64,000 nucleotides of DNA from Pseudomonadota bacterium (GTDB lineage Bacteria > Pseudomonadota > Alphaproteobacteria > Rickettsiales > UBA3002), in assembly GCA_040384265.1 (NCBI GenBank), contig JAZKJM010000004.1, positions 202,418-266,417 of the forward strand, given 5' to 3'. Positions 33,558-56,416 of this stretch are shown here, one piece after another. A program made the translations under genes and the position numbers. The notes below the pieces were generated by a model, which did no database searches, was not told where the DNA came from, and saw only the letters and a program-made list of their open reading frames with translations. The stretch's first letter is position 1; each line of letters begins with the position of its first letter.

Positions 33558-35318
33558 ATGGCAAAGAAGACCGACATTCCCATCAAAGACCTGGTCAGCA
33601 TGATTCAGCACGGCGAGCTGCGGCTGCCGGAGATGCAGCGGCGCTATGTATGGACATCGACGCGCGTGCGCGATCTGCTGGATTCACTCTATCGCGGTTA
33701 TCCGTCTGGCTCCATTCTCGTCTGGGAAACCGATCTGGAACAGCCGGTGCGCGATCTAGCCGTATCGCAATCCGACACGCCATTTTCCACCTATAAGCTT
33801 CTGCTCGACGGCCAGCAGCGCCTGACTTCGCTCTCGGCCGTTATCCGTGGTGAGCCGGTGATGGTGAAAAACCGCCAGCGTCCTATCGATATCGCCTTCA
33901 ATCTCGATCATCCGGAAGGCTCGCCGGTGGAGCTGATGGAAGTGGAGGACGATGAAGAATCGCCGATGATCAAAGCGGATGAGACGCAAGAAGAAGATGC
34001 CGAGACCGCTGAACGCCAGGACTCGGTCATCGAGCGCTTGAATAAGCGCACCTTTGCCGTAGCATTCCGCAATCTGCTGGCGCAGCCCAACTGGGTTAGC
34101 GTTACGGAAGTGTTTAATGGCCAGAAATCGGACTGGGAGTTGCTCAAAGATTTGGTTGGCACACCGGACAATGCCAAATTCAAATTCTATTCCGACCGGC
34201 TACAACGACTGCGCAATATCTGCCAATACTCCTACGTCATGCATGTTTTGGGCCGCGATCTTTCCTATGAGGAAGTAGCAGAGATTTTCGTGCGCGTGAA
34301 TTCGCTGGGCGCCAAGCTGCGCGGCTCCGATCTTGCGCTGGCGCAGGTCACCGCGAAATGGCGCAACTCGCTCAAGCTATTCGAAGAGTTCGCCGAGGAG
34401 TGCGAGGAGCAACAATTCACCATCGATGTCGGCTTGCTAGTGCGCCTGATGGTCGTATTTGCCACCAAGCAATGCCAATTCAAAACCGTGTCTTCCATCC
34501 CACTTCCAACCATGCAGGAATCATGGGAAAAAGCCAAAGAAGGCATGCGCTACGCCATCAATTTCCTGCGCGCCAACGCCGATATCGAGGATGAATCGCT
34601 ATTATCTTCGCCGTATTTTATCATCCCTATCGCCACTTACGGCATACTGAAAGACGGCAAGATTTCCCCCGCTGATGAAACTGCCATGCTGCGCTGGCTC
34701 TATGTCGCCAATGCCAAAGCGCATTATTCCGGCTCCAGCGAGAGCAAGCTGGATTATGATGTTGGCCTGTTGTTCAAGGGCAATAGTTTTGATGCACTGA
34801 TTGAGCCGCTGCACCAACGTTATGGCAGGCTGCACGTCGAGGCCGGAGATTTCGCCGGGCGCGATCCGCGCAACGCGCTCTTCTCTCTAGCCTACCTCGC
34901 ACTCAAACACAGCGGCGCTAAAGATTGGCGCACAGGCCTCGGGCTATCACTCACCCACCAAGGCAAGCTGCACTATATCGAATATCACCACATCTTCCCT
35001 AAATCGCTGCTGCAGAAAGCGGGCTACGAAAAAGCGGAGATTAACGAGATCGCCAACATGGCGTTCATCAGCGGCCGCGCCAATCGCGGCATTTCCAACA
35101 AAGAGCCGAAGGACTATTTCCCAGGCATCATCAAGGAGCGCACCGAAAACGCATTGTCGTCGCAGTACATCTCGTTGGATAAAGAAATGTGGGAGGTCAC
35201 CGCTTACCCGCATTTTCTGCAGTATCGCCGTCAGGAGCTAGCCAAGGCAGTGAACGAGTTCATCGAGAGCGCCTGCAAAGCTGGCCGTGCGACAACACTT
35301 GCCAGCAAGGCGGCTTGA
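33558..35318 (+). CDS. DUF262 and DUF1524 protein, GmrSD-like defence candidate
   Basis: The 586-residue protein has an N-terminal DUF262 (ParB/Srx-like) domain with LPEMQRRYVWTSTRVRDLLDSLYRGYP and the nucleotide-site signature LLDGQQRLTSL. The C-terminal domain carries an HNH-like DUF1524 motif, YIEYHHIFPKSLL, with NMAFISGRANRGISNKEP. Single-chain fusions of these two domains, such as GmrSD and related type IV restriction enzymes, cut modified phage DNA. It is a full-length gene without its own methylase. GGGGGCAG precedes the ATG. Function as defence is inferred from family. Confidence 0.82.
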   Translation: MAKKTDIPIKDLVSMIQHGELRLPEMQRRYVWTSTRVRDLLDSLYRGYPSGSILVWETDLEQPVRDLAVSQSDTPFSTYKLLLDGQQRLTSLSAVIRGEPVMVKNRQRPIDIAFNLDHPEGSPVELMEVEDDEESPMIKADETQEEDAETAERQDSVIERLNKRTFAVAFRNLLAQPNWVSVTEVFNGQKSDWELLKDLVGTPDNAKFKFYSDRLQRLRNICQYSYVMHVLGRDLSYEEVAEIFVRVNSLGAKLRGSDLALAQVTAKWRNSLKLFEEFAEECEEQQFTIDVGLLVRLMVVFATKQCQFKTVSSIPLPTMQESWEKAKEGMRYAINFLRANADIEDESLLSSPYFIIPIATYGILKDGKISPADETAMLRWLYVANAKAHYSGSSESKLDYDVGLLFKGNSFDALIEPLHQRYGRLHVEAGDFAGRDPRNALFSLAYLALKHSGAKDWRTGLGLSLTHQGKLHYIEYHHIFPKSLLQKAGYEKAEINEIANMAFISGRANRGISNKEPKDYFPGIIKERTENALSSQYISLDKEMWEVTAYPHFLQYRRQELAKAVNEFIESACKAGRATTLASKAA

Positions 35319-36161: not shown

Positions 36162-36249
36162 TGGCGGAAGCGGTGAGATTCGAACTCACGGAGGCTTGCA
36201 CCTCGCTAGTTTTCAAGACTAGTGCCTTAAACCACTCGGCCACACTTCC
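36162..36249 (-). tRNA. tRNA-Ser (anticodon TGA), CCA encoded
   Basis: On the minus strand the sequence starts GGAAGTGTGGCCGAGTGG, has the anticodon stem CTAGT/ACTAG around CTTGAAA, a long serine-type variable arm, TTCGAATC in the T-loop and ends CGCTTCCG plus an encoded CCA. The acceptor stem pairs fully apart from one G-T. It marks the right edge of the accessory segment. Confidence 0.95.
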
Positions 36250-37368: not shown

Positions 37369-37534
37369 GTGCGAGTGCCCCCGATGGTTGAGTGGTTGAA
37401 AGTGCTGCTATTGCTTGCTTTATTACTTCTTTCGGGGGCGCAAGGTCAAGATAAATACACCAATTAGTTGCATCATTGGGCGCAACGTGTGGTTGATATG
37501 GCACAGGGAATGGCTTCGGGTATTTTAGCGTCTG

Positions 37535-37550
37535 TTAAGGATATATTAAC
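37535..37550 (+). promoter_or_regulatory. CtrA-binding box upstream of the exported repeat protein
   Basis: TTAA, seven bases (ggatata), TTAAC: an exact CtrA consensus, 48 bp before the ATG at 37598. The same box appears before the ankyrin gene at 979. It suggests that CtrA, and so cell-cycle or lifestyle signals, controls expression of the type I secretion locus. Confidence 0.65.
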
Positions 37551-37597: not shown

Positions 37598-40177
37598 ATG
37601 GCGACCATGTTTTTTGCAGGGATACCACTGGAAGGCAGCGGCAGCCGCCCGCTCGAAGCCGATTTATATGGTGCCGAGCAACAGGGGGTCGATGCGGAGA
37701 ATATCTCGGCGACGGGCAACCTGAATATCGGCAATGTGATCAACTATGATGCGCATGTCCAACGCTATCTCACTGGCGCAGCGGTGGGGGGCAACCATGC
37801 CGACGCATCATTGGCAAGCACGCCCGATACGACGAGCGGCCTCATCACCTCGCCGGATGGGGGCCGTGCGCGCACGGTGAATTACGATGGTGACAGCGCG
37901 ATCACCAACAACGCAGCGGCGGCGAACGATGCCGCGCCGCAAAACCCGCAACTTGCGGCGCCGCGTGGGCCGGATGCCCCCGCAAGCCCCAGCGCGCTGC
38001 CCGCAGCGGATGCGCCGGTGACGGAAAGCACGGGCGGTGGTGACTCGTCGAGCACGATCAACAACTATGCAAGCGATAGCGCCAGCAGTAGCAGCACCAG
38101 CGACAGCCACGACGTTACGAATAGCAATAACACCAATAACTATTCGAATAACGTGGTCACGATCAGCAACAGCGAGCAGAATTATACGGTGAATAATTAT
38201 TACAACGATTCGCATAACAGCCTTATCTCGATTGGCGATATTACGCTGATTAATAATAGCGGTGGCGGCTCGACGACGAATAATTTCCTGAACCTCGACC
38301 TCACCATCCTGAACACGGTCACGACGCAGACGATCACGAATATTTTTGGCAATGGCGGCGGCGACTCGCCGTGTGGCCTTGATGTCTGCGCGCTGATTCA
38401 GAATACATTGCAGCAGGTGACGACCGTGCTGGGCGGCGGTGGCGATGGGCTGCAGCTGGTGGCGATTATCGAGAATGCGCTGGGGCAGGTGACGACGCTG
38501 CTTGACCTGCATGGTGGCAATGGCCTGCTGGCGACGTTGGTCACGCAGCTGGGCGATACGCTGCATGACGTGGGCGATTTGCTCAGTGGTGGCGGTGACC
38601 TCAACGTGACGCAGCTGCTTGGCACGGTGACGACGCCGCTTTCGGATGTGGTGTCGCAGCTGGTGGCGGGCGGCGCGGAACAGACGCTGGCGGCCGTGGT
38701 GAGCGAGCTGAACAGCACGCTGGCGCAGCTGGGCGAGGGAATTGGCGAAGCGCTGCCCAGTGAGGTGACGCAGCTGGTTGGTCATGCGCTCGACCAGGTG
38801 ACGGCGATTGTTGGCGGTGATACGGGGGCGCTGCTGACGGCGCTGAATGGGATTGGCGACCTTGTGGGCGGCTTGCCGCCGGGCAACGGTGTGCCGCTGC
38901 CGGCGTTGCCGGATGTGGTGGGCGTGATCGGCCAGGCACCAGCGGCGATTGGGATGGAAGTGCAATCGCTACTGAACGCGGTGGGCGGCGGATTGCCAGG
39001 GTTGCCAGGTCTTCCCGATATTGGTGGGGTGCCTGGCGGCATTGGCCTGCCACCGTTGCCGGATGTGACGGCGCTGCTAACGCAAGTGCCGCCGGCACTG
39101 GTGGGTGAGGCGCAGGTAGTAGTAAATATGGTGACAGGCGGTGTGCCGCCGCTGCCCGATGTGCTGGGGGCGGTGGGTAGCGTGCCGCTGCCAGCCTTGC
39201 CGGATGTGGCGGGCATGCTTTCGCACATTCCGCCAGCGGTTGTCGGTGAGATTCAGTCGGTGCTGAACGGGGTGACGGGGCAATTGCCTGCGCTGCCAGA
39301 TGTGGCTGGCACGCTGACGCCGGTGCTGGCAGCGGTTGGTGGCGAGGTGCAATCGATCATCGGTGGGGTGGAAGGCGTCGCGGCGCAGATTCCATCGGCG
39401 CTCACAGGCGAAGTGCAATCGGTGATTGGTGGAGTGGAGGGTGTGGTTGCACAAATTCCGTCGGCGCTGGTGGGCGAGGTGCATTCGGTGCTGGGCGGGT
39501 TGGAGGGCACGGTGGCGGCGTTGCCGGTGCAGGCGATGCTCGATGCGGTGGGCGGCACGGTCGCCAGTGTGGCGACGCCGTTGGTCGATACGTTGAGCAA
39601 CGCATTGCATGGCCATCCGCTGCTGGATGCGAATGCAAACCTGCTCTCGCCCGCATTGGCACCGGCGGATGACCATGCGCTGATTAATGCCGACCTGTCG
39701 CTGCTCAGCCCGGCGGGCGATGCATCGCCGCATGCGGCGGGGATTGGCTTGCTGGATGTGAGTGGCACGATTCTTTCTGACCCCACGAGTGGTGGCAGCG
39801 CGCATGACGGTATTTCCATCAGCCTGAATGCAAACACGGTGACGGATCTGCTGCTGCCGCAGAATGCGCTGCCGGTGGTGTCGTATGATATTCCGCTGCC
39901 AAACCTTGTACAGGCGGTGCCGCTGGCATCAACCGTGTTCGATACGGTGGCGCAGGCGAGCAATGATGTGCATGGTGCGGCCAGCCAGCTGCTTGACCCG
40001 CTGGTACATCTCTCCGTGTTGGCGGATGCAGGCCACGCGGTGGCGGCGGTGGATGCGGGCGTGCTGTTTGGCGGCAGCCAGGCGGCAGTCGGCGGCCATG
40101 CGGAAGCGCCGCCCGCCGCCGCGCCGGTGCTGCATATCGAGCATCTCGCCAATGCGTTCCTTGGCCATCACGCGTAG
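37598..40177 (+). CDS. Large repetitive protein, probable type I secretion substrate
   Basis: The 859-residue protein has no N-terminal signal peptide. Residues about 85-150 are Pro/Ala-rich, about 150-250 are Ser/Asn-rich (SNNTNNYSNN, NNYYNDSHNS), then Gly-rich (LGGGGDG) up to about 430. Residues about 428-650 are a repeat array with the patterns PALPDV-x-G, IP-x-AL-x-GEVQSV and GGVEGV. Only two cysteines are present (SPCGLDVCA). The C-terminus (HIEHLANAFLGHHA) ends amphipathically like an uncleaved type I signal. RTX nonapeptides were not found. Two ABC exporter genes and an HlyD adaptor follow at once. An adhesin or matrix function is a guess. Confidence 0.7.
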   Translation: MATMFFAGIPLEGSGSRPLEADLYGAEQQGVDAENISATGNLNIGNVINYDAHVQRYLTGAAVGGNHADASLASTPDTTSGLITSPDGGRARTVNYDGDSAITNNAAAANDAAPQNPQLAAPRGPDAPASPSALPAADAPVTESTGGGDSSSTINNYASDSASSSSTSDSHDVTNSNNTNNYSNNVVTISNSEQNYTVNNYYNDSHNSLISIGDITLINNSGGGSTTNNFLNLDLTILNTVTTQTITNIFGNGGGDSPCGLDVCALIQNTLQQVTTVLGGGGDGLQLVAIIENALGQVTTLLDLHGGNGLLATLVTQLGDTLHDVGDLLSGGGDLNVTQLLGTVTTPLSDVVSQLVAGGAEQTLAAVVSELNSTLAQLGEGIGEALPSEVTQLVGHALDQVTAIVGGDTGALLTALNGIGDLVGGLPPGNGVPLPALPDVVGVIGQAPAAIGMEVQSLLNAVGGGLPGLPGLPDIGGVPGGIGLPPLPDVTALLTQVPPALVGEAQVVVNMVTGGVPPLPDVLGAVGSVPLPALPDVAGMLSHIPPAVVGEIQSVLNGVTGQLPALPDVAGTLTPVLAAVGGEVQSIIGGVEGVAAQIPSALTGEVQSVIGGVEGVVAQIPSALVGEVHSVLGGLEGTVAALPVQAMLDAVGGTVASVATPLVDTLSNALHGHPLLDANANLLSPALAPADDHALINADLSLLSPAGDASPHAAGIGLLDVSGTILSDPTSGGSAHDGISISLNANTVTDLLLPQNALPVVSYDIPLPNLVQAVPLASTVFDTVAQASNDVHGAASQLLDPLVHLSVLADAGHAVAAVDAGVLFGGSQAAVGGHAEAPPAAAPVLHIEHLANAFLGHHA
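39344..39541 (+). repeat. In-frame 66-bp tandem repeats in the exported protein
   Basis: Three 22-codon units begin at gag/gaa-gtg-ca[ag]/t positions 39344, 39410 and 39476, exactly 66 bp apart. They encode the unit starting EVQSIIGGVEGVAAQIPSAL with small changes (EVQSV, EVHSV). High DNA identity between units 1 and 2 suggests recent duplication. Longer imperfect repeats of about 40 codons precede them. Confidence 0.8.
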
Positions 40178-40204
40178 GTTCCCCTCCCTGCGACCGTGAC
40201 CGAA

Positions 40205-40239
40205 ATCCCACGTAGTGGCGAATAGTCGCTACGTGGGAT
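40205..40239 (+). terminator. Hairpin between the substrate gene and the first exporter gene
   Basis: atcccacgtag (40205-40215) and ctacgtgggat (40229-40239) form an 11-bp stem with a 13-base loop that can pair further. No T-run follows, so it may attenuate or stabilise the message, giving more substrate than exporter. Confidence 0.5.
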
Positions 40240-40311
40240 GGGTTGTATCCGATTAGCGATTGCAACCAATGGGTGTGTAATTATAATAATTGGGAAACCA
40301 ATGGGATTCCT

Positions 40312-41997
40312 ATGCTCGGTCAAAACACATTCATCCACCCGCGCCATCTTGGCTTATTACTGGCGTCCTCGCTGGCGGTGAACACGCTGGCATTGGCGTT
40401 GCCGCTGATGACGATGCAGATCTATGATCGCGTGCTCTCCAACCGGGCGGAAGATACGCTGCTGGTGCTTTCGGTCGGGGTGATGATTGCGGCCTGTGTG
40501 GAATGCACGCTGCGCATTTGCCGCAGCATGATGGTGGGGCTTAACGGCGCGCATTTCGAGCATGATGCGGCGGTGCGCGCGCTTGGGAAGGTGTTGGAGG
40601 CGGAGCCGCGCGCCATCGGCTCCACAACGCCTTCGGTGATTGCGCAGGACATTGGAGCCGCCGCACGGCTCAAGGATTATTTCGGTGGGCAGATGATGGT
40701 GACGCTGCTGATCGACTCGCCGTTTATTATCGTATTTTTGGCGTTGGAGGCCTATCTCGCCGGGTGGCTGGTGGTGGTGCCATGCGCGGTGCTGGCGCTG
40801 TTTTTGCTGATGTCATGGCACCAGGGCGTGCAGGTGCGCGAACTGATCGACGCGCGCGAGAACCATGACGATGCGCGCTACAGTTTTATCACCCAGGCAC
40901 TGCAAGTGGTGCACACGATCAAGACCTTCTGCCTTGAGGCATCGATGGCGCGGCGCTTCGAGGAAGTGCAGCGTGAAAGCGGCCAGACTAATTATGCGCT
41001 GGCCTGCAAGCATGGGCAGGCGGGCTCGCTCAGCTACGGGTTTTCGCAAGCGATGACGGTGGCGGTGATCTGCGCCGGCGCGCCGCAGGTGATGCATGGG
41101 CATATCACGGTGGGGACGCTGATTGCCTGCGTGCTGCTGTCCGGACAGGTGATGCAGCCGCTGCAGCGCGGGCTGGCGATGTGGATCCGCTTTCAGGATA
41201 TTGCGCTCGCCAAAGAGCGGCTGACGGGGCTGATGGAACTGCCGCCACGGCCGTTTTTGCTGCCTGAGAAAATGGCTGCCAACCATGGCGCGCTGCGGCT
41301 CGACAAGGTGCGCTTCAGCTATGCCGACGGGGTGCCGGTGCTGGATGGGGCGAGCCTTGCCGTGGCGCCGGGGGACATGGTCGGCATCACCGGCGCATCC
41401 GGCAGCGGCAAGACGACGCTGCTGGAATTGATGGCCGGCATCGCGATGCCCGATCGTGGATCGGTGACGCTTTCGGGCATGGCGGTGGCGGGCATTCCGA
41501 TGGCGGAGCGCGACCGCTATATCGCCCATCTGTCGATGAGTGGGCTGATCCTGCGCGGCAGCATTATGGATAACCTCACCGGCTTCCGCCCGGAATTGCG
41601 GGCGCAGGCGCGCCATGTCGCCGACCAGCTGGGGATTGAAGACGCGGTGGCGCTGCTGCCTGCGGGCTATGACACGCCGCTCGAAGGCCACACGACGGAT
41701 GTGGTGTCACCGGGGCTGAAGCAGCGCATCAGCATTGCGCGGGCGCTGCTGCACAAGCCGCGGTTGATCCTGTTCGAGAATGCCGATCATGGGATGGACC
41801 ATGATAGCTACAGCCGTATTTTTGCGCTGCTGGCGCGCCTTAAAGGCAAGGCGACGATGGTGGTGGTGTCGGAGGATCGCAATATTTTGAGCCTGGTCGA
41901 TCATATTTACGACCTGCGCCACGGGCAGCTGACGGCGATGAGCATGCCATCCATGCTGGTCAACGATCGCCGGATTGTCAGGGGAGCCAGCGCATGA
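40312..41997 (+). CDS. ABC exporter subunit with degenerate ATPase motifs (type I secretion)
   Basis: The 561-residue protein has a six-helix transmembrane domain (about 15-300) and a nucleotide-binding domain (about 325-550). Walker A is intact (GASGSGKT, Lys367). The signature LSGGQ is changed to VSPGLKQR (466-471). Walker B ends FEN at 488-490 instead of the usual DE pair, and the H-loop histidine is Glu521. It therefore has no catalytic glutamate of its own. The next gene supplies a second subunit, so a heterodimer is likely. The start at 40312 gives a normal N-terminus. Closest in layout to PrtD/RsaD-type exporters. Confidence 0.85.
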   Translation: MLGQNTFIHPRHLGLLLASSLAVNTLALALPLMTMQIYDRVLSNRAEDTLLVLSVGVMIAACVECTLRICRSMMVGLNGAHFEHDAAVRALGKVLEAEPRAIGSTTPSVIAQDIGAAARLKDYFGGQMMVTLLIDSPFIIVFLALEAYLAGWLVVVPCAVLALFLLMSWHQGVQVRELIDARENHDDARYSFITQALQVVHTIKTFCLEASMARRFEEVQRESGQTNYALACKHGQAGSLSYGFSQAMTVAVICAGAPQVMHGHITVGTLIACVLLSGQVMQPLQRGLAMWIRFQDIALAKERLTGLMELPPRPFLLPEKMAANHGALRLDKVRFSYADGVPVLDGASLAVAPGDMVGITGASGSGKTTLLELMAGIAMPDRGSVTLSGMAVAGIPMAERDRYIAHLSMSGLILRGSIMDNLTGFRPELRAQARHVADQLGIEDAVALLPAGYDTPLEGHTTDVVSPGLKQRISIARALLHKPRLILFENADHGMDHDSYSRIFALLARLKGKATMVVVSEDRNILSLVDHIYDLRHGQLTAMSMPSMLVNDRRIVRGASA

Positions 41998-44147
41998 ACG
42001 CGGATGTCTGTGCCAATGCATTTGGGCAATCGGGGAAATGGCTGTGCCAGCTGGGGCTGCACGGCATGCTGCGCTGGCAGCACGGCAATAATAACTATGG
42101 GCTGCTGCTGCCGGTGCTGCTGGAGCTGAACGGCTGGCAGGGCGATATTTTATCGCTGTCGGATGCGTTGCCCTGCACCGCGCGCGAGATCGGTGTGCAG
42201 GATGTGCTGGCGGTGATGACGGCGCTGGGCTACCGCGTGCGGCGCGAGCGCATCCACACCCAAAACCTCAAGCCCGAAGACCTGCCGGGGCTGTTTATCC
42301 CGGCGGGCAAACAGGCGCGGCGCGAGGGGCTGGTGATCCGCGAAATCGGCGCCTATGGCATGGTGTGGCATGATGGGCGCGAGCAGGAGCGCGGTGTGTT
42401 GCCGCCGCAGGAAGGCGCGTTCTACCGTTTCGAGCGGCTGAGCGTGGGCGAAGCCAACGAGGAGCAGCTAGGCTGGTTGCAGCAAATGGGTGAGCGCTTC
42501 AAACCGCTGATGTGGTATGCGGCGGGCTTAAGCCTGGTGATGCATGTATTCACCCTCGCCATGCCGCTGTTTTCGATGGCGGTGTATGACCGCGTGATCG
42601 CGGCGCATTCGCTTTCGACGCTGCCGCTGCTGGTGATTGGTGTGGTCTTGGCGCTTTTGGTCGAACATATGATCCGCTGGATGCGGGTGCGGATTGCGGG
42701 CTGGATCGGCTCGCGCGCGGGGTTGCTTGCCAGCGCGGCGATGTTCGAGCGGTTATTGTTTTTACCGGCCTCGATCATCGAGCAGGCGTCGATTTCGTCG
42801 CAGCTGGCGCGCATTCGGGCGTTTGAATCGATCCGCGATTTTATCACCGGGCCGGTGTTTCTGACCATCCTCGAAATTCCGTTTTTGTTTGTGCTGATTG
42901 GCATTATCGCGCTGCTGGCGGGGCCGGTGGCGTTTGTTTCCATCGTCATCATGGCGGTGCAGGCGGTGATGCTGCTGGTGCTGCGCGCGCGCTGGAAACG
43001 GCTGGGCCGCGAGACGGCGCACGCCTCGGCGCAGCGGCAGCAAATTCTCATGGATACGATTGAAAACAGCAAGGCGATGTATGCGGCGGGCCTCAGCGCG
43101 CGAATGCTGCAGCGCTTCAAAGCGGTGAGCTGGCAGGCGGCGAAATCCAATTACCGCTTCGGTCTGAATGCGGCGGTGGTGCAGCATTGCGCGGGGCTGG
43201 TGACAGTCATTGCGGGCGTGGCAACCATTGGCATGAGCCTTAGCCGCATCTGGGATGGGCAGATGACCGGCGGGGCGATGGTGGCGACGATGATTATCAC
43301 CTGGCGGGTGCTGTATCCGCTGCAGGCGCTGTGCGGGGTGATGCCGCAGCTGGAGCAGATCATCGCGGCGCTGAAGCAGGTGTCGCAGCTGATGTCGTTT
43401 ACGCCCGAATCGCACGCGGCGAATGTGGTGCTGGCGGAGCATAAACTGCAGGGAAAAATCAGCATCCAGAATCTTGGGCTGCGTTATGGGCGCAAGAGCG
43501 ACCCGGTATTTATGGGGCTGAATTGCGAGATTGAGATTGGCGAAATTGTCGCGGTGCATGGTGGCAATGGCTCGGGCAAATCGAGCGTGCTGCGCTTGTT
43601 GCTCGGGCTCTATGCGCCGGCGATGGGCAGCATTCGGCTGGATGGGGTGGACCATCGCCAGTTCGACCCGCGCTCGCTGCGCCGCCAGATCAGCTATTTG
43701 CCGCAAGCGCCGGAACTGCTGCCGGGCACGATTGCCGATAATCTGCGCGTGCATGATTTGCTGGCGGACGATTACCAGCTGCGCCAGGCGCTGCTATGGG
43801 CGGATGCGTGGGAGATGGTGGAGCAACTGCCCGCCGGGCTCGATACGCGCCTTGGCGAGGGCGGCTATATTCCATCGAGCGGGCTGGCGGCACGGCTGTG
43901 TTTGGCGCGGCTGTACCTCAGCGAGAGCCAGGTGATTTTATGCGATGAGCTGGCGAGCCAGCTGCTCAATAGCTCCACCGGTGAGCGGTTCCGCCATTTC
44001 CTCAATGAATGCCGCGGCAAACGCACGGTGCTGTTTGTTACCCACCGCGAGGACTGGCTGCACTATGCCGACAAGGTGATTTACCTGCAGGCGGATGCGC
44101 GGCCGGTGGTGGCGCGGCCCGAACGCTGGGTAGAAAAAGTGGCATGA
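41994..44147 (+). CDS. ABC exporter subunit with C39-like N-terminal domain
   Basis: The 717-residue protein has an N-terminal segment of about 140 residues resembling the degenerate peptidase-like domain of RTX exporters (no catalytic cysteine motif seen), a transmembrane domain (about 170-450) and an ATPase domain. Here Walker A (GGNGSGKSS, Lys529), Walker B (CDE, Asp651-Glu652) and the H-loop (VTHR, His684) are intact, but the signature reads IPSSGLAAR (626-633). Paired with the previous subunit, only one of the two composite sites keeps its catalytic residues. The four-base overlap with the gene before it supports a 1:1 complex. Confidence 0.87.
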   Translation: MNADVCANAFGQSGKWLCQLGLHGMLRWQHGNNNYGLLLPVLLELNGWQGDILSLSDALPCTAREIGVQDVLAVMTALGYRVRRERIHTQNLKPEDLPGLFIPAGKQARREGLVIREIGAYGMVWHDGREQERGVLPPQEGAFYRFERLSVGEANEEQLGWLQQMGERFKPLMWYAAGLSLVMHVFTLAMPLFSMAVYDRVIAAHSLSTLPLLVIGVVLALLVEHMIRWMRVRIAGWIGSRAGLLASAAMFERLLFLPASIIEQASISSQLARIRAFESIRDFITGPVFLTILEIPFLFVLIGIIALLAGPVAFVSIVIMAVQAVMLLVLRARWKRLGRETAHASAQRQQILMDTIENSKAMYAAGLSARMLQRFKAVSWQAAKSNYRFGLNAAVVQHCAGLVTVIAGVATIGMSLSRIWDGQMTGGAMVATMIITWRVLYPLQALCGVMPQLEQIIAALKQVSQLMSFTPESHAANVVLAEHKLQGKISIQNLGLRYGRKSDPVFMGLNCEIEIGEIVAVHGGNGSGKSSVLRLLLGLYAPAMGSIRLDGVDHRQFDPRSLRRQISYLPQAPELLPGTIADNLRVHDLLADDYQLRQALLWADAWEMVEQLPAGLDTRLGEGGYIPSSGLAARLCLARLYLSESQVILCDELASQLLNSSTGERFRHFLNECRGKRTVLFVTHREDWLHYADKVIYLQADARPVVARPERWVEKVA

Positions 44148-44163
44148 TGCTGAGGAGAAACGC

Positions 44164-45561
44164 ATGAAAAATAATAACACGATGCTGTCCTACACGGTGG
44201 GTCAACAGATGCGGATGATGGGGCAATCGCTGCGCAGCAAAGTGCGGGTGTGGTGCGTGGATGACCTGAACGCTGTCAGCCAGTCGATGCGGGTGGAGGA
44301 GACACGGTTGCCGCGCTTGCTGCGGCTGATGGTGCTCACCCTTTCGGCGGCGACGGGGCTGTTTATTCTCTGGGCGGCGCTGACGCCGGTGAAGGAATTG
44401 GCGCGCACGGATGGGCAGGTGCTGCCCAGCGGCTATAGCCAATTGGTGCAGCATCTGGAGGGCGGGCTGGTACGCCAGATCCTCATCCATGAAGGCGATT
44501 TTGTGCAGAAAGACCAGCTGCTGGTGCAGCTGGACGGCGCCGGGCTGGAGGAGGATTTCAAGGAGCAGCAGGCACTGGTGGATGCGCTGGCGATGCAGGT
44601 GGAGCGGTTGCATGCGCTGCTTGAAGTGCGCGAGCTGAACTTCACGGGGATGAACCTCGATGCTGCCGCCATCGCCCAGCAGAAGCGGATGTTTAATGAA
44701 ATGCGCACGACGCGCGCCTCCGAGCGCTCGGTGCTGGATGAGCAAATTGCGCAGAAGAAAATTGCGATCACGCGGTTGTCGCAATCGCTCAACACGGCGC
44801 GCAGCACGCTTGGCACTGCGACCGAGGGCAAGAATATTTACGCGGGCCTGAGCGACAAGGGGCTGGCGACGCGCTCGACCTATCTCAAACGGCAAGAGGA
44901 AGTGTATGCGCGGCAGGGCGATGTGAACAGCATCGCCAAGCAGATCGAGGAGGGGCAGCGCGAGCTGATCGAGTTTGCGCAGCGGCGCGAGGCGCTGGCC
45001 GGGCAGCAGCGCGACAGTGCGTATAACGAGCTGCGCAAGGCGGAATCCGACCTCGCGCAGGCGCGTGAATCGCTGAAAAAACGCAACGACCGCGTGGGGC
45101 GGCTGGAAGTGCGCGCGCCGGTGATGGGCTATGTGAAAGGGCTCAAGCTCAACACCATCGGCGCAGTGATTCCCGCCGGGCAAACGCTGATGGAGATTGT
45201 GCCGGTGGATGAGAAGCTCATTGTGGAAGCGCATATTACGCCGCAGCAAATTGGCCGGGTGGTGCCCGGGCAAGAGGTGCGGGTCAAGGTCGATTCCTAT
45301 GATTATGTGCGCTACGGCGCGATTGAGGGCACGCTCGAATCCATCTCCGCGATGACGTTTGTCGATGAGATGAAACGGCAGGATTATTACAAAGGCCGGG
45401 TGGTGCTGAAGCGCAATTACGCTGGCGCAACGGCGGGAAGTCACCTGATTTTACCGGGCATGACGGTCGATGCGGATATCGTCACCGGTGAAAAAACGGT
45501 GCTGGGGTATTTGATGAAGCCGATCCAGGTCGCCGTGCATAACGCGATGAGCGAACAATAA
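44164..45561 (+). CDS. HlyD-family membrane fusion protein (type I secretion adaptor)
   Basis: The 465-residue protein has a cytoplasmic N-terminus of about 55 residues, one membrane helix (about 57-77), a lipoyl-like half (QHLEGGLVRQILIHEGDFVQKDQLLVQLDG), a long coiled coil (about 125-305) and the second lipoyl half with the beta-barrel (VRAPVMGYVKGL, VVPGQEVRVKVDSYDY). It links the ABC pair to an outer membrane TolC channel. TGAGGAGAAACGC lies before the ATG. The length is normal for PrtE/HlyD proteins. Confidence 0.93.
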   Translation: MKNNNTMLSYTVGQQMRMMGQSLRSKVRVWCVDDLNAVSQSMRVEETRLPRLLRLMVLTLSAATGLFILWAALTPVKELARTDGQVLPSGYSQLVQHLEGGLVRQILIHEGDFVQKDQLLVQLDGAGLEEDFKEQQALVDALAMQVERLHALLEVRELNFTGMNLDAAAIAQQKRMFNEMRTTRASERSVLDEQIAQKKIAITRLSQSLNTARSTLGTATEGKNIYAGLSDKGLATRSTYLKRQEEVYARQGDVNSIAKQIEEGQRELIEFAQRREALAGQQRDSAYNELRKAESDLAQARESLKKRNDRVGRLEVRAPVMGYVKGLKLNTIGAVIPAGQTLMEIVPVDEKLIVEAHITPQQIGRVVPGQEVRVKVDSYDYVRYGAIEGTLESISAMTFVDEMKRQDYYKGRVVLKRNYAGATAGSHLILPGMTVDADIVTGEKTVLGYLMKPIQVAVHNAMSEQ

Positions 45562-45581
45562 TCACCACAGGGAGAAACCGA

Positions 45582-46540
45582 ATGCCACACGCCGCACTGA
45601 CCCAATGGCCCAGCAATTCCAGCAGCCCGCTGCCGATGCCGCGCATTTTGCTGGCCGATGATGATCGCATCATGCGCCTCGTGCTGCGGCAGGCGCTGCA
45701 GCATAATGGCTACGATGTGAATATTGTCGAGAGTGGCGAGGAGGCGCTGGCGATCCTCGCCGAGCACGGCGCGAACGTGGATACGGTGATTCTCGATCGC
45801 GAAATGCCGGGGCTGAAAGGGCTCGAAGTGGTGGAGCGGATGAAGGCGCACCCGCAGATGCGCAATATCCCGGTTATCATGCTCACCGGCACGGGCGAGC
45901 AGGATAAGATTCAGGAGGGCATTGATGCGGGGGTGTATTATTACCTCGTCAAACCGGTGGATAATACGCTGTTGCGCAGTGTCATTGAATCGGCGCTGCG
46001 TGAGCGGCGGCAGAAACAGGCGCTGATTGGCGAACTCACCCGTTATGGCGCGGCACTCAAAGCGATGCGCTTCTGCCAGATTGCGGTGCGCACGATGACG
46101 GAAGCCGAAGACACGGCGTGTTTTTTGGCGTCCTGCTTCCCCGACCCCGAGCGGGTGGTGATGGGCCTGATGGAGCTGCTCGCCAACGCGGTGGAGCACG
46201 GTAATCTCGCAGTCACGTTCGAGGAAAAAAACAAGCTGCTGACGGATAACACATGGCGCAGCGAGCTCGACCGGCGGGCGCTGCTGCCCGAGCATGCGGG
46301 TAAGCTGGTCGATGTGACCTACCAGCATAAGGAGGAGGGCTACCTTGTGCAGATCAGCGATTGCGGCGCCGGGTTTGACTGGAAACGTTACTGGCACATT
46401 AATCCCTCGCGCGCGACGGCAAGCCACGGGCGCGGCATTGCGCGGGCACGACTGATGGCCTTCGACCGGCTTGCCTATAACGAGCAGGGCAACCAGGTGA
46501 CGCTGATGGTGGCGCATGATGCGGGCACGGGTGATTACGC

Positions 46541-46547
<7 letters not shown>
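45582..46547 (+). CDS. Receiver domain fused to RsbW-like ATPase
   Basis: The 321-residue protein begins with a full receiver domain (about 20-145; ILLADDDRIMR, phospho-acceptor in VILDREMPGLKG, MLTGTGE, VKPVD). A second domain (about 190-310) has a HATPase/anti-sigma kinase pattern: N-box GLMELLANAVEHGNL and ISDCGAGFDW with HGRGIARARL. It has no H-box, so it should not autophosphorylate on histidine. Such proteins can act as phosphorylation-controlled anti-sigma or partner-switch kinases. It starts 20 bp after the HlyD gene with a strong GGGAGA site. Confidence 0.85.
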
Positions 46548-49257
<2,710 letters not shown>

Positions 49258-49261
<4 letters not shown>

Positions 49262-51363
49262 GCAGGCCCTTGCTAACCATCCGCCAACGGCTTTTTCGCA
49301 TCCATCTGGTGATTGCGCTGGTGGCGGTGCTGTTCGTTTCGGCGGGGATCGCGATCGCGGACTGGAGCATCACCCGGCGTGCGCTAATTCATGATTTTGA
49401 AAATAGCCTCGCCGCCGCAGCGCGTGGCAGCGCGACCTACCTGCAGCTGAAGGATATGAAGAGCCTGGCGATTCACCTGAGTGATTTTTATGCCCTGCCG
49501 GGGCTGAATACGCTGTGTGTGTATGATGCGCAGAACCGGCAGGTATCGGCGTGGCAGGCGGAGGGCGCATCGACCCAATGCCCCAGTTTTATCATGCATG
49601 AGGGGTTGGAAATCCAGTGGTTGCAGGTGGCGACCGCGATGCGGCTGATGCGTGGCGATACGTATGTTGGCGTGCTCTATGCGGATAGCGAGCTGGTGCT
49701 TTTCCGGCGCATTCTGGTGCGCAATGTGGGGGTGCTACTATCGTTGCTGCTGGTGGCGTATCTGGCGTGCCGGGCGTCATCCATCGCGGGCGGGCGGGCG
49801 ATTACGCTGTCGCTAAAGGCGTTGCAAGAGCAGGTCGAATGCCTGACCAATAACGATTTCAGCGTCTGCACCGTGGTGCCGCCGATGACGACGGTGGAAA
49901 CGGCCGGGCTGGCGGCGAGCATCACCGCATTTCGCACCCATCTGGCGATTGATACGCTGCCGCGCGCGGAGCTGAAACAGACCCGCAACTGGTATTGCCA
50001 GATCGTCTCGGGCTTGTTGATGACGCTCCGCCAGCGGCTGGATGCCCAATCGCCGCTGATTGATACGGTGGAGCATTACGAGCTGCTGCTGCAGATGGAA
50101 TGGGGCAATGCGTTGCCAAGCCCGGTAGTGTTCGATATTGCGCGGCTGCTGAAGGCAAGCGTGGCGGCGGCGCGTGCCGAAATGCCGCGCAATGATCAGG
50201 TGCATGTGAGTGTCTCGCTACAATCCTCCATCCAGCATGAATGGCTGGGCCATCCGGATATTATTCGTTCGCTGCTGAAGCATCTGTTGCTGATCGCCCT
50301 GCGCCGCACGCGGGTGGGGGCGGTGTGCCTGCGCCTTGAGGTGGATGCCGAACCGGGCTTCGCCCAGCAGCATATGCTGCGTCTGAAGCTGGAGGATTCC
50401 GGCCCGCCGCTGCAACGCTGGCAGCTGCGCCAGTGGCTCGACCAGGTGAAAGACGACGTGCCGACGATTAACCTGAACCAGGATTTTTCGTGGGTGCTGA
50501 CGGGACGGTTGTTCCATTATGTCGGCGGCGGGGCAACGGCGCAGACCGAGCCAGCCGGCGGGTTGACGCTGATGGGTTGGGTGCCGTTGCTGAAGCCGCA
50601 TGACGCGGTGGCCCCGGTGGCCAGCAAAGCGCGCGCGGTGACAACCCACCACACGCTGCCGCCGCTGGTGATGGCGGTGGAGGAGCAGGCAGAGAAACGC
50701 CGTGAAACGCGCGCGCATCTGGAGCAGGCGGGTTGCCGCGTGTTCATGCTGGAGACGCATGCGCAGGCGTTGGAATGGGCCCCTGCGCTGCCGTTCTCGG
50801 CGATCCTGCTCAATGGGTTTCTGGCGGACACGCGCACGATTGTTGCCCGCCGCTTACGCACGCTGGCCGATGAGGGGCTGATGCCATCGATCCCGCTCTG
50901 GGCCATGGTGGCGCAGGCCTCTGTGCCAGAGCAGACCGCGTGGCAGGAGGCCGGGGTAAGCGCGCTGGTGAGCGTGCCGATGCAACAGGATCGCCTGCAG
51001 GCGCTGTGCCGCCAGTTGCACGCGCCCACGCCGGGTTTCTATCAGGTGTATGACGCCCATCTGCACGGCGATTTCCCAAGCTCGGTGATTATGCGGCTTT
51101 CGGAGCTGAACCGGGAAATGGCTTCGCAAGTGGCGCAGGTGGAGACGATTATGGCGCGCATGGCGCGCGGTGAAATGCCGGTGGGGGCGAGCGAAGATAT
51201 CCATGCGGTGAAATCGGCATCGCTGACGCTGGGCTATTTCCGCCTGTCGGCGCTGATGACGGAAATCGAGCGCGCGATCACGGTCGATGGCTTCGCGCAG
51301 GAGCCTAAACACTGGGAAATCATTGCCCAGAGCCTGCAGCTGGCGGGGTTCGGCCAGCCCTGA
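49258..51363 (+). CDS. Degenerate sensor kinase with pseudoreceiver and intact HPt
   Basis: The 701-residue protein has two membrane helices (about 15-37 and 152-172), a periplasmic region and a HAMP-like linker. The expected H-box is replaced by LKQTRNWYCQIVSGLLMTL with no histidine, and the N-box is lost (HLLLIALRRTR). The receiver-like domain has Asn519 in place of the phospho-Asp (ILLNGFL). The last 70 residues are an HPt domain with His649 in DIHAVKSASLTLG. It probably senses and relays or modulates the hybrid kinase rather than phosphorylating itself. It overlaps the kinase gene by four bases. Confidence 0.82.
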
Positions 51364-51413
51364 ATGCATGCAATTTGGTTGACGGCGCGGCAGTGGTTCA
51401 TTACGCCTTTGCC

Positions 51414-51809
51414 ATGGGCACACCGGATATCAATAGCCATGTGGGGCTGCGGCTGCGGCTGCGTCGCACCACGCTTGGGCTGACGCAGGAAGCGGTGGCG
51501 CGCGGCATTGGCGTTGCGGCGCAGCAGGTGCAGAAATATGAAAAAGGCACCAATGTCATGAATGTCAACCGGCTGCACGAATTCGCGCAGTTCCTGCATG
51601 TGCCGGTGGGGTATTTCTTCGATGGGTTGGGCAAAACGGATGCGGTGCATGCCTATGTCGAGCAGGAGGATCCATTCGAGGATGGCGGTAAGGCGGTGTC
51701 GGATCGTGAGTCGATTGAGATTGTGAAATCCTTCCGCCGCATCAAGGATCACGCGCTGCGCAAGCGGCTGGCGGATTTACTGCGCACCTTATCGCTCAGG
51801 GAACTTTAG
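51414..51809 (+). CDS. XRE-family transcriptional regulator
   Basis: The 131-residue protein has a helix-turn-helix near residues 7-65 ([52 protein letters not shown]) and a charged C-terminal helix ([18 protein letters not shown]). This type is widespread in alphaproteobacteria and often acts on cell-surface or stress genes. It follows the signalling genes by 50 bp on the same strand and may be their last cistron. The start is uncertain: a TTG at 51375 is also in frame. Confidence 0.82.
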
Positions 51810-53558: not shown

Positions 53559-53717
53559 GCAGCAATTCTCCAAGCGAGGCGTTACCCAGATGCTATAGCA
53601 CAGACAAAGCAGCGGTAAAATGAAGAAAGTGGAGCGATCATACATGGAAAATTTATGTGCTGGCGGCTAGTATCCGCGGATGTAAGCGACGACGGAAGCA
53701 TAAAAGGCAGTGGCACC

Positions 53718-55700
53718 ATGACGACAAGTAACCTGATTGTGGCATTGGTGGATGCGCATCCCAAGGCCATCCTGCTGCTGTATTCGGCGCGCAAACTGGC
53801 GCGTGAGAAGGGCTACCGCTGGCGCATCGTGCATGTGGAGCGCACGGATACGGTGCGCGGCAGCGACGAGGGGGCGGAGGAGCGCCTGCGCCGCCTGTTC
53901 ACGCTTGCCGAGCAAATGGGCGCCGAGGTGCAGCAGATTCAGGCCGAGACGCTGGAGCGTGGCCTGCAGCAGCTGATTGATGTCGAAAAAGCGGTGCTGG
54001 ATACGATTGTCATCGGCATCACCAAGAAAAAGGGCCGCTTTGCATCGCTTTGGGAGCGTTCGCAGCGGGTGCGCGCCACCCGTTTGGCCCGCCATTATGC
54101 GGGGGTGGAGGTGGTGCCGCTGGGCGGGGCCACGTATAAACGCCAGTTCCGCTGGCCAGTGCGGCGGCAGCAATGGGTGCATTTCATCTATGCATTTATG
54201 GCCGTTGGCGTGGCCTATCTGGTCGCGGCGGCGCTGGAGGAAGTATTGCCGCCGGCGCTGTTTCGTATCAACATCCAGAATATCAGTGTGTTGTTCATGA
54301 CTGCCTGTGCCTTCACGGCGGGGCGCTATGGGTTGTTGCCGGGGTTGGTGGCGGCGGTGCTGAGCGCAATGATCTATAACTATTATTATGTGCCGCCGAT
54401 TCGCAGCCTTGAGCTGTTGACCGTCACTAAGGGACTCAGCATGGCGCTGTTTTTCCTGGCGGCGGTGCTGATTTCAATTTTCACCGGGCGGGCGCGGCTG
54501 CATGGTGAGCGCAGCGCGCAGCGGCAGCGTAGCACGGAGGTGTTGTTCATGCTTTACCGCATTGCCAGCAACGCCTTCTCGCGCCAGCAAGCGCTGGAGG
54601 TGCTGCAGCAAAAACTAGCGGAAATGCTGCATATTGAAGTGGCATTCTTCCTGCCGCGGTTGATGCAGGCCGATACAATCGAAGCCGCAGTGCCGGCCGA
54701 TCTGGTGCTGGATGAGCGTGACCGCCGGGCGCTGGAAACATGCTGGAGCGAAATCAAGACAACCGGGCTTGCCTCGCCATCGCACACGCTGGCGAGCTGG
54801 CGGTTTAAGCCGATGGTCACGCCGAGCGGCATTATCGGCATCTTCGCGGTGCGTCCGCGGGCAGGCAGCATTCTGGAACCCTGGCAGGCCGGTTTGCTGG
54901 CGGGCATTGCCGACCAGACGGCGATTATTATCGAGCATCTCGAACTCACCCGTTCGATGGAGAGCGCCCGCCTTAATGAGGAGCGCGAGAAGCTGCGCAC
55001 CATGCTGCTTTCGAGCGTGAGCCATGACCTCAAGACGCCGCTGGCGGGCATCATGGGCGCGTTGCGGGTGCATCGCAGCGTGGGGGAACGGTTGACGCCC
55101 GAGGCGCGCGCCGACCTGCTCAACGACGCGCTGGAAGAGGCGCAGCGGTTGGATAGTTTTATCACCAACATCCTCGATATGACGCGACTGGAGAGTGGTG
55201 AAATCAACTTCCGGCCGGACTGGCACGATATGCAAGGCGTGGTGCAGCAGGTGGTTAAGCGCATGCAGCATCGCCTGCATACACGCCGCTTGACGGTGGT
55301 GCCATGCGAGCAGGCCATCGAGGTGCTGATGGATGACACGATGACCGAGCAAATCCTTCAAAACCTGCTCGATAATGCATGCAAATACACCGCGCCGGAT
55401 GTGGAGATTACCATCACCATCATCATTTGCGAGAAGAGGGGCGTGTGCTGCGCAGTGCGCGATACCGGGACGGGGATTCCGGAGGATAAATTAGCCAGCG
55501 TGTTCGATAAATATGCGCGGCTGCAGAAGAAGGATAGCCAGGTGGCAGGCACCGGCCTTGGCCTTGCAATCAGCAAAGCGGTGATGGAAGCCCAGGGCGG
55601 CTCGATATGCGCAGAGAACCACCCCGATGGTGGCGCGGTGTTCACGTTCTGCTTCCCGCAATGGCGCCCGGTTGAGGCCCACGAGCCCCATAAGGAATAG
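53718..55700 (+). CDS. KdpD-like sensor kinase lacking the N-terminal KdpD domain
   Basis: The 660-residue protein has a UspA-like domain (about 1-135; VIGITKKKGRFASLWERS), four membrane helices (about 157-275, KdpD DUF4118 type, with YNYYYVPPIRSLELLT), a GAF-like segment, HisKA (SSVSHDLKTPLAGIMGALRV) and a HATPase (LLDNACKYTA, GTGLGLAISKAVM). Full KdpD has about 890 residues with an N-terminal ATP-binding KdpD domain (GxxxGxGKT); here it is missing. No kdpFABC is present. A KdpE-like regulator faces it two bases away. Confidence 0.88.
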   Translation: MTTSNLIVALVDAHPKAILLLYSARKLAREKGYRWRIVHVERTDTVRGSDEGAEERLRRLFTLAEQMGAEVQQIQAETLERGLQQLIDVEKAVLDTIVIGITKKKGRFASLWERSQRVRATRLARHYAGVEVVPLGGATYKRQFRWPVRRQQWVHFIYAFMAVGVAYLVAAALEEVLPPALFRINIQNISVLFMTACAFTAGRYGLLPGLVAAVLSAMIYNYYYVPPIRSLELLTVTKGLSMALFFLAAVLISIFTGRARLHGERSAQRQRSTEVLFMLYRIASNAFSRQQALEVLQQKLAEMLHIEVAFFLPRLMQADTIEAAVPADLVLDERDRRALETCWSEIKTTGLASPSHTLASWRFKPMVTPSGIIGIFAVRPRAGSILEPWQAGLLAGIADQTAIIIEHLELTRSMESARLNEEREKLRTMLLSSVSHDLKTPLAGIMGALRVHRSVGERLTPEARADLLNDALEEAQRLDSFITNILDMTRLESGEINFRPDWHDMQGVVQQVVKRMQHRLHTRRLTVVPCEQAIEVLMDDTMTEQILQNLLDNACKYTAPDVEITITIIICEKRGVCCAVRDTGTGIPEDKLASVFDKYARLQKKDSQVAGTGLGLAISKAVMEAQGGSICAENHPDGGAVFTFCFPQWRPVEAHEPHKE

Positions 55701-55702
55701 GC

Positions 55703-56416
55703 TTAAGCGGCGCTTTGTTTTGGCGATGGGAGGATTTCCATCCGGTAGCCGATGCCGGGCTCGGTCATCAGGTATTGCGGATCGGCGATGGTGCGCTCGA
55801 TCTTGGCGCGCAGCTGACCGACATACACACGCAGATATTGCACGTTATGCGTATGCGCCACGCCCCAGACTTCGCTCAGGATATGTTTGTGGGTCAGCAT
55901 TTTGCCGCGATTGACCATGAAATAACGCAGCAATTCATATTCCTTCGGCGTGAAGGAAATCAGCGCATCGTCGAGATACACCTCGTGGCGCACCAGATCC
56001 ATCCGCAGGCTGCCGTTGGTCAGCTCCGGCTCGCCCGCTTCCTTGGTGGTGGCTTTGCGTAGGCTGGCGTGGATGCGGGCCAGCAGCACATCCGGGTTGA
56101 AGGGTTTGGTGACGTAATCATCCGCGCCGAGTTCGAGCGCTTTGATAATCTCGTTATCGTCATCGCGCACGCTGCAGACGATGATCGGCATCAGCGACCA
56201 TTCACGCACCTGGGTGATGACTTCTTTGCCGTCGATATCGGGCAGGCCGAGATCCAGCACCATGAGCTCCGGGCGGATGGAGGCGCTCAGGCGCACGGCC
56301 TCGCGGCCATTGTCGCACTCGACGACTTTATAATCCGCGCTTTCGAGCGAGATGGTGAGCAGCTTGCGGATGCGCGGTTCATCCTCGACGATGAGTACGG
56401 TGTTTTTGGCCGACAT
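55703..56416 (-). CDS. KdpE-like OmpR-family response regulator
   Basis: The 237-residue protein has a receiver domain (LIVEDEPRIRKLL, phospho-acceptor in MVLDLGLPDIDGKE, VTKPFN) and a C-terminal winged helix (SFTPKEYELLRYFMVNRGKMLTHKHIL, VYVGQLRAKIE). It matches KdpE in layout and in the DIDG receiver. It is convergent with the KdpD-like gene instead of in an operon with it. AGGAG precedes the ATG. Its targets are unknown here; the antiporter gene nearby is a candidate. Confidence 0.9.
   Translation of the reverse strand: MSAKNTVLIVEDEPRIRKLLTISLESADYKVVECDNGREAVRLSASIRPELMVLDLGLPDIDGKEVITQVREWSLMPIIVCSVRDDDNEIIKALELGADDYVTKPFNPDVLLARIHASLRKATTKEAGEPELTNGSLRMDLVRHEVYLDDALISFTPKEYELLRYFMVNRGKMLTHKHILSEVWGVAHTHNVQYLRVYVGQLRAKIERTIADPQYLMTEPGIGYRMEILPSPKQSAA

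Follow-up and report, generated by a model that had tools for sequence, protein, structure and literature searches.

A 64,000-nt stretch of alphaproteobacterial DNA (Rickettsiales; contig JAZKJM010000004.1 of assembly GCA_040384265.1), here called the window and taken at its full length, carries at 37598-51363 a type I exporter locus in which the genes of the exporter are tightly linked to those of a phosphorelay. This association, proposed in a preliminary description of the sequence, is now supported by gene content, by spacing and by recurrence in other genomes, and it involves, in particular, a protein made of a receiver (REC) domain followed by an RsbW-like ATPase domain (the receiver-ATPase). 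The reading favoured here, to which we assign a probability of about 0.4, is that the phosphorelay gates the exporter directly at the pump and not via a sigma factor.

Organization of the locus

The assembly that contains the window amounts to 2.0 Mb in 9 contigs and is 95.5% complete; domain assignments are Pfam and NCBIfam matches judged against the cut-offs of the families. Seven open reading frames (ORFs), every one on the + strand as first described, are found at 37598-51363: the gene of a predicted cargo protein (37598-40177) and then, from 40312 to 51363, six tightly packed genes encoding exporter and signalling proteins. These are the ABC (ATP-binding cassette) exporter subunits ABC1 (40312-41997) and ABC2 (41994-44147), whose genes overlap by 4 nt, a HlyD-type periplasmic adaptor (44164-45561), starting 16 nt after ABC2, the receiver-ATPase (45582-46547), starting 20 nt after HlyD, a hybrid histidine kinase (46541-49261), which overlaps the receiver-ATPase by 7 nt, and a degenerate kinase (49258-51363), which overlaps the hybrid kinase by 4 nt. 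The tight spacing reported from 41994 on is borne out, neighbours overlapping by 4 or 7 nt or being at most 20 nt apart; so is the domain content, with the qualification that the histidine phosphotransfer (HPt) domain of the last gene is recognized only from a motif and from relatives. The ATG codons at 37598 (cargo) and 40312 (ABC1) are the likely starts, and the cargo of the closest relative begins at the matching residue.

The cargo gene and ABC1 are 134 nt apart, and a hairpin and a promoter-like site, both on the + strand, lie between them. The hairpin (40205-40239, 15 bp), a possible terminator or attenuator, folds with -31 kcal/mol over a 50-nt stretch (z -7.7); it is not followed by a T-run and is absent from the list of predicted terminators. 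The promoter-like site of the exporter operon (40260-40287, TTGCAA-16-TATAAT, 10 of 12 positions) is the top-scoring of 8 such sites in the region, where 5.5 are expected by chance, so that it is no proof of a promoter. On the basis of these two elements the cargo gene probably forms a separate transcription unit, and 40312-51363 is likely to be read as a single transcript. The earlier proposal that the phosphorelay shares one transcript with the secretion genes thus appears sound for the exporter and doubtful for the cargo.

Conservation of the linkage between exporter and signalling genes

The linkage was traced from the exporter in 216 genomes of the order and 385 of the class. The receiver-ATPase was not used as bait in these searches, but the ABC2 profile was built from linked loci, and the best 5 (order) or best 2 (class) candidates per genome were scored, further exporters being possible. 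In the order, there is a gap in the ABC2 scores between 584 and 384 bits; of the 13 genomes above it, 12 have a same-strand receiver-ATPase no more than 5 kb away, and the exporter of the 13th is on a 3.8-kb contig. Nine genomes of the class, including that of the window, score above 830 bits, and six of these are linked to a receiver-ATPase. Taking both searches together (the window is in both), 17 of the 21 genomes with the best-scoring exporters have a linked receiver-ATPase, three have a hybrid kinase alone and one exporter lies on a cut contig. In a related clade of two-ABC exporters (class rows of 583-760 bits), a receiver-ATPase is within reach in 0 of 35 loci (E up to 1e-45), nor is one present in any of the 12 loci of this set that were fetched; one member of the clade, L170, has a hybrid kinase adjoining HlyD.

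Since score cut-offs give no clean border between the clades (G021, of the order, has a receiver-ATPase at 584 bits), a tree of ABC2 was relied upon (57 rows, quick, with midpoint root; L024, in which the ABC2 frame ends early, was left out). Here, a fully supported branch separates the related set from all other rows, and the three kinase-only loci form one clade; the whole pattern of labels requires 2 changes versus 14.2 in shuffles, and the linked label 2 versus 13.5. The related set adjoins the linked Desulfobulbales, and only with a root placed on its own branch does it fall outside the linked rows.

The opposite approach, starting from the receiver-ATPase, covered one genome each of 84,980 species, of which the best 80 loci were kept; the ORF was recognized in 78 of them, the other two (L066 and L098) being dropped from the tree of this protein. 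HlyD is directly upstream on the same strand in 39 of the 78, and both ABC genes could be measured in 33 of these 39, most of the others being cut contigs. Within these best 80 loci, the overlap of the two ABC genes is exactly 4 nt wide in 29 of the 33, and no more than 32 nt separate HlyD from the receiver-ATPase in 34 of the 39. The linked groups comprise Micavibrio-type and other Alphaproteobacteria, Marinagarivorans and Candidatus Endobugula among the Gammaproteobacteria, the Desulfobulbales and the Rickettsiales. In the tree, all 40 linked rows (window included) fall within one clade of 53 rows together with 13 unlinked ones, a second clade of 26 rows is entirely unlinked, and the linkage label changes 9 times versus 26.6 in shuffles. 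The recurrence of the gene order in unrelated assemblies rules out chance adjacency or misassembly. Conservation of the whole order from 40312 to 51363, the check suggested in the preliminary description, is found in part: exporter and receiver-ATPase recur together in Alphaproteobacteria, Gammaproteobacteria and Desulfobulbales, but the degenerate kinase is found in few relatives.

Downstream, a hybrid kinase follows in the same-strand run in 21 of the 35 linked loci for which 1 kb or more of sequence is available there, and HPt genes follow in three more (L046 by Pfam, L029 and L049 by eye). Among the downstream hybrid kinases given to Pfam, HPt domains were found in L022 (two), L034, L152-L154, L156 and L159; L170 shows none and L021 runs into the contig edge. 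A Desulfobulbales locus that is not evaluable downstream, L057, has a hybrid kinase 5' of ABC1.

Other genes accompany some of these loci. In Micavibrio-type loci (L027, L031 and L036, and L034 by eye), proteins of about 300 aa with a C-terminal receiver, their N-terminal 170 aa or so being without Pfam match, are encoded 3' of the receiver-ATPase, and an OmpR-type regulator points away from the cargo gene in two of them (L031, 761-1489; L034, 390-1100). The pairs of receiver-ATPase and hybrid kinase at L142 (7693-10604; on the same contig as L020) and L143 (5274-9376) may be remnants or free-standing pairs.

The exporter and its degenerate subunit

ABC_membrane and ABC_tran are both matched above the Pfam cut-off in ABC1 and ABC2, for which the best NCBIfam models are LssB, HlyB and PrtD, every one below its cut-off, while the adaptor matches TIGR01843 with 355.5 bits (cut-off 208.65). 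TolC-type channels are represented in the genome by 12 OEP domains across 6 open frames, and in L044 a TolC-type gene (7251-8756) is found 3' of the receiver-ATPase, within the operon. In the window, a HlyD-like adaptor, a MacB-type ABC transporter and a TolC-like gene stand in a row at 58261-62698, and this TolC-like gene could also serve the type I exporter.

ABC2 of the window has intact Walker A and B motifs and ABC1 has degenerate ATPase motifs. Across the loci aligned, ABC2 has the Walker A Lys in 36 of 36 rows and the Asp-Glu pair in all 35 readable rows, and the H-loop His is retained in 14 of 36. The catalytic Glu of ABC1 is present in 1 of 35 rows, Asn taking its place in 30; the H-loop His is found in 0 of 35 and a canonical signature in none. 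With ten further loci of the signalling clade these figures become 1 of 45 for Glu and 0 of 45 for the H-loop His. By comparison, in the related clade without receiver-ATPase 7 of 10 ABC1 rows retain the H-loop His and 5 of 10 the Glu (L160 and L165 have no ABC1 row in these additional sets); for the H-loop His the difference between the clades gives p 6e-7, with rows that are not independent. Judging from these motif counts, the degeneration of the ATPase motifs in ABC1 accompanies the signalling module, and does so even in Desulfobulbales, whose receiver-ATPases were mostly seen without kinase.

The signalling proteins

The receiver-ATPase matches Response_reg with 95.1 bits and HATPase_c_2 with 29.8 bits (cut-off 27.4). 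D72, T102 and K124 of the REC domain and the N, G1 and G2 boxes of the ATPase are all present, that is, a receiver with its phospho-acceptor Asp is followed by an RsbW-like ATPase with its three boxes, as is characteristic of the LvrC/TciR type. The top match in the PDB of its AlphaFold model (pLDDT 81) is LvrC of Leptospira (9qih, E 8e-18), with a TM-score of only 0.42 over the whole chain, many of the lower matches covering the receiver alone; when a profile of the ATPase half was compared with the PDB, 9qih was the sole match (E 1.5e-14). As many as 1120 proteins match the receiver-ATPase at E up to 1e-3.

The hybrid kinase is composed of PilJ, HisKA, HATPase_c, two REC domains and HPt, and its phospho-sites, namely the His, both receiver Asps and the HPt His, are intact. 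In the degenerate kinase, for which Pfam gives a sub-threshold Response_reg match alone (18.5 bits), the G1 box is gone, the Asp of what is now a pseudoreceiver is replaced by Asn and the HPt His is kept, as it is in three full-length relatives; the HPt domain is recognized from the motif HAVKSASLTLG and from PF01627 in two of its four relatives, being itself without Pfam match. An AlphaFold model of this protein was poor (pLDDT 61) and was set aside. The preliminary description has the phosphorelay sense the envelope. As judged by eye, the N-terminal halves of the two kinases span the membrane; that of one includes the PilJ domain and that of the other weakly resembles YfiN-type sensors, below cut-off.

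In the Rcs phosphorelay, RcsC-RcsD-RcsB, a hybrid kinase likewise stands beside a degenerate kinase that retains its HPt domain, and since the degenerate kinase of the window has lost G1 and the receiver Asp while keeping the HPt His, it may be an RcsD-style phosphate carrier; a weak NCBIfam match to RcsD (E 0.008) was also obtained. The two systems differ in their output: RcsB is a DNA-binding regulator, whereas the output gene in the operon of the window is the receiver-ATPase, and no DNA-binding output regulator of the RcsB type was found in the locus. At least four other proteins related to the degenerate kinase are among the matches listed, and with so few relatives this gene is best seen as a local addition.

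The predicted cargo and its control by CtrA

The predicted cargo, a protein of 859 aa, has no Pfam or NCBIfam match. It had been described as repetitive, and a repeat is indeed present, although a modest one (2.3 copies of a single 66-bp unit). At least 8 homologues are among the matches listed, the searches for relatives of the cargo and of the degenerate kinase having scored the 7989 and 7999 candidates, respectively, that share most words. The N-terminus of the cargo (LEADLYGAEQQGVDAENISATGNLNIGNV) aligns with KLDADQYSAEDLDGVTESLFGSGNLN of the Micavibrio-type cargo found at the same position of the locus, and the motif is common to the cargo of the window, of Rickettsiales and of Micavibrio-type loci. 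A strict version of the N-terminal pattern, which the window's own N-terminus fails, occurs in 11 of the 33 genes at the cargo position, a GLFG-like C-terminus in 15 of them, and neither in any of 737 other genes, both patterns having been composed after some of the cargo had been seen. The 33 genes are 32 distinct ones (L158 repeats L044), other known repeat contigs having been dropped; L022 and L023, with an EF-G gene at the cargo position (in L022 by Pfam), count as misses, and L141 is tagged as kinase-only although a receiver-ATPase is present there. Because RTX, collagen-like or cadherin matches, some of them below cut-off, are found for cargo-like genes elsewhere, the cargo would likely function at the surface or in adhesion. 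An ordinary RTX protein was rejected as the identity of the window's cargo given its lack of a Pfam match, even if such genes in other loci do encode RTX, cadherin and Big domains.

A CtrA-type box (GTTAAGGATATATTAAC, 37534-37550) lies 63 nt 5' of the cargo start, where binding is predicted from the match to TTAA-N7-TTAA, a motif confirmed in the accessible part of PMC9437464. In the whole window the complete box is matched 4 times, counting both strands, at 2 palindromic sites, against 0.08 matches expected by chance. With at most one mismatch, the box is found at -50 to -80 of 13 of 24 cargo genes, compared with a mean of 2.8 and a maximum of 8 in local shuffles and with 9 of 63 other genes (p 0.0005); for the exact box, 4 of 24 versus 3 of 63 (p 0.09) is not convincing. 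In these counts, the upstream G+C content is 0.31 for cargo genes and 0.41 for the others, and related loci are not independent. CtrA itself is encoded in the genome (NF045991, 406 bits, cut-off 350), and the cargo gene is likely to be transcribed under its control. The second palindromic box (978-994) is 5' of an ORF at 1141-2031.

What the receiver-ATPase may act upon

Genes, spacing, intact phospho-sites and conserved linkage are read directly from the sequence, and a mechanism can be proposed from them. A signal would be received by the PilJ-type sensor of the hybrid kinase, and phosphate would pass from HisKA to REC and HPt and then to Asp72 of the receiver-ATPase, perhaps with the HPt domain of the degenerate kinase as an intermediate in the manner of RcsD. 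Phosphorylation of Asp72 would release or rearrange the RsbW-like domain, which would then bind or phosphorylate the exporter, or the conserved N-terminus of the cargo, thereby switching secretion of this putative substrate on or off; the cargo gene would be transcribed apart from the exporter operon, under CtrA. The pump is favoured as the target because ABC1 is without the H-loop His in 45 of 45 rows of the signalling clade and without the Glu in 44 of 45, unlike in the related clade. A more specific version, in which the catalytically dead ABC1 is the docking site of the receiver-ATPase and a two-component signal opens or locks the exporter, is a speculative proposal that we consider improbable as it stands. 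Asymmetric ABC pairs are known, and the degeneration of ABC1 may simply be the mark of an asymmetric heterodimer, which is one of several points that weigh against gating at the pump.

Others come from the loci themselves. In L152-L154 (class) HlyD is followed immediately by a hybrid kinase with HPt and a receiver-ATPase is absent, so that the pump can do without the latter; conversely, L142 and L143 hold receiver-ATPase and hybrid kinase with no exporter in the 16-17 kb fetched, which indicates that this pair can act on something else, and 13 of the 53 rows of the receiver-ATPase clade have no exporter in view. No hybrid kinase is found downstream in 14 of the 35 linked loci, among them all 6 evaluable loci of Desulfobulbales, though ABC1 is degenerate in Desulfobulbales too. 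In addition, both LvrC (PMC13269768) and TciR (PMC12826045) are discussed by their authors as anti-sigma factors in the parts of these papers at hand. Exporters without receiver-ATPase and receiver-ATPases with kinase but without exporter, in particular, keep our confidence in direct gating limited. As to the preliminary description, which staked its reading on homologous exporters elsewhere having these signalling genes, it holds for the best-scoring exporters, where the 17 with receiver-ATPase are joined by the three with hybrid kinase; it does not hold for the related clade, for the loci lacking a downstream hybrid kinase or for the degenerate kinase with its at least four relatives.

The same observations would suit an ordinary global two-component branch (leading, for example, to CtrA) that is co-transcribed for joint expression and in which the target of the receiver-ATPase has nothing to do with secretion: L142 and L143, L152-L154 and the 13 unlinked clade members speak for it. 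Co-expression alone, however, does not need a linkage that persists across distant groups with two changes on the exporter tree, and this explanation appears unlikely. Even less probable is that the phosphorelay acts on the cargo instead of the pump, the receiver-ATPase being a kinase or chaperone for the N-terminal motif. The motif shared by the window, Rickettsiales and Micavibrio-type cargo and the enrichment of its strict pattern at the cargo position (with the pattern written after some had been seen) speak for it; yet the motif is not recognized at the cargo position of Desulfobulbales loci, where RTX, cadherin or Big-domain genes sit downstream, and the receiver-ATPase is encoded with the pump and not with the cargo.

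Control of a sigma factor by the RsbW-like ATPase, the route suggested initially, is not supported by the gene content of the genome. No match was found there to STAS domains (PF01740 and PF13466, with positive controls in 10 of 14 and 7 of 14 genomes) or to PP2C/SpoIIE phosphatases (PF07228, with positive controls in 5 of 14), and none of the four sigma-70 genes (PF04542: RpoD, RpoH and two ECF types) is of the SigB/SigF type, so that a partner switch of the RsbW-RsbV-RsbU kind is rejected for this genome, as far as its 95.5% completeness goes. Another device could be envisaged, in which the receiver-ATPase is a REC-controlled anti-sigma factor and the phosphorelay frees or captures RpoD, RpoH or an ECF sigma transcribing the exporter or cargo genes. 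This is doubtful, but it has in its favour that the sole solved homologue by profile, which is also the top fold match, is described as an anti-sigma factor (LvrC, 9qih; PMC13269768, as far as the text available goes), and that the loci of Nitrospirales relatives include a sigma gene (L061, L070, L073 and L099). Besides the missing STAS, SpoIIE and SigB-type partners, it has against it that the promoter-like sites are of the CtrA and sigma-70 kind, that the sigma partner of LvrC itself is given as unknown in that text, and that no sigma gene adjoins the receiver-ATPase in 47 exporter-linked loci, as searched with the sigmas of the window genome. Sigma or STAS genes are found in 1 of these 47 loci versus 6 of 39 unlinked ones, a weak contrast (p 0.04) obtained with six query proteins and flanks of unequal length, and the only sigma gene of a linked locus, of ECF type, is on the opposite strand about 5 kb away.

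In the Nitrospirales loci, the RpoD/RpoH-like sigma gene is about 1.6 kb 5' of the receiver-ATPase in L061, L070 and L099 (about 7600-8430) and 6 kb 5' of it in L073 (3172-4041), an arrangement unlike that of the exporter-linked loci. Receiver-ATPases of Asticcacaulis that are outside the exporter clade adjoin STAS_2 genes (L051, 8834-11659; L064, 11178-11507); in L051 a CheA-like gene follows, possibly as part of a chemosensory partner-switch cluster.

Neighbouring genes in the window

An ORF with a helix-turn-helix (HTH) domain of the Cro/C1 type (51375-51809, + strand; HTH_3, 2e-9, above cut-off; start codon uncertain), which had not been mentioned before, is co-directional with the degenerate kinase, 11 nt 3' of it, and is possibly the last gene of the operon. 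Shortly 3' of the locus, a kinase with a DUF4118 domain, as in KdpD, and an OmpR-type regulator are encoded on opposite strands, converging (53655-56512). On the other side, a GmrSD-type restriction gene at 33558-35315 lies in a stretch of lower G+C content (0.51-0.53) just before a tRNA-Ser (36162-36249, - strand); this stretch may be an acquired island.

Relation to known systems

Type I secretion is mostly described as transcriptionally controlled, and direct gating, if true, would add to it a timed, signal-gated export. If docking on ABC1 were also true, this would be the first type I system so gated, as far as our searches show, and the REC-RsbW proteins would gain a target that is neither a sigma factor nor a STAS protein. 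A REC-RsbW clade that travels with one exporter through Alphaproteobacteria, Gammaproteobacteria and Desulfobulbales suggests a concrete candidate target and provides cultured organisms in which to test it.

On the exporter side, the MARTX system (RtxB/RtxD/RtxE) also has two ABC proteins and a HlyD-type adaptor, with TolC encoded elsewhere; it differs in gene order, in its toxin cargo and in that the locus, as described in the available part of PMC3034196, has no phosphorelay genes. No MARTX-type cargo was found in the locus of the window, whose cargo is without Pfam match. A type I system and RTX proteins have been described in the Micavibrio genome, no gene of the REC-RsbW type being named in the sections of PMC3189940 that could be consulted.

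On the signalling side, LvrC, which has the REC plus RsbW-like architecture and is phosphorylated by a kinase in vitro, is the end of a kinase relay, LvrA-LvrB-LvrC of Leptospira (PMC13269768, 9qih), that resembles the one proposed here in leading to a REC protein with an RsbW-like (Bergerat) domain; LvrC is regarded as a putative anti-sigma factor, the term secretion is absent from that paper, and no HPt is named in the available text. TciR of the TciK-TciR pair of Vogesella indigofera has an N-terminal REC and a C-terminal RsbW-like domain, as does the receiver-ATPase, and its genome is also without RsbV homologue; its authors allow for targets other than sigma factors; the pair regulates pigment, no link to an exporter being described in the part of PMC12826045 at hand. 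SypE of Vibrio fischeri likewise joins an RsbW-like kinase to REC and acts on biofilm formation below a sensor kinase, but it includes a PP2C domain and is partnered by the STAS protein SypA (PMC3610818, from the excerpt available); neither is found here, Pfam giving only REC and HATPase_c_2 for the receiver-ATPase and no STAS match in the genome. According to the accessible portions of PMC12826045 and PMC13269768, experimental work on TciR and LvrC goes back no further than the past year, with their targets still unknown.

In searches of the open-licence literature, no exporter locus with a REC-RsbW gene was found, although one may well have been published. REC-RsbW proteins, newly characterized, and type I exporters with two ABC subunits are each already known separately, and it is their lasting union in one locus that appears to be new.

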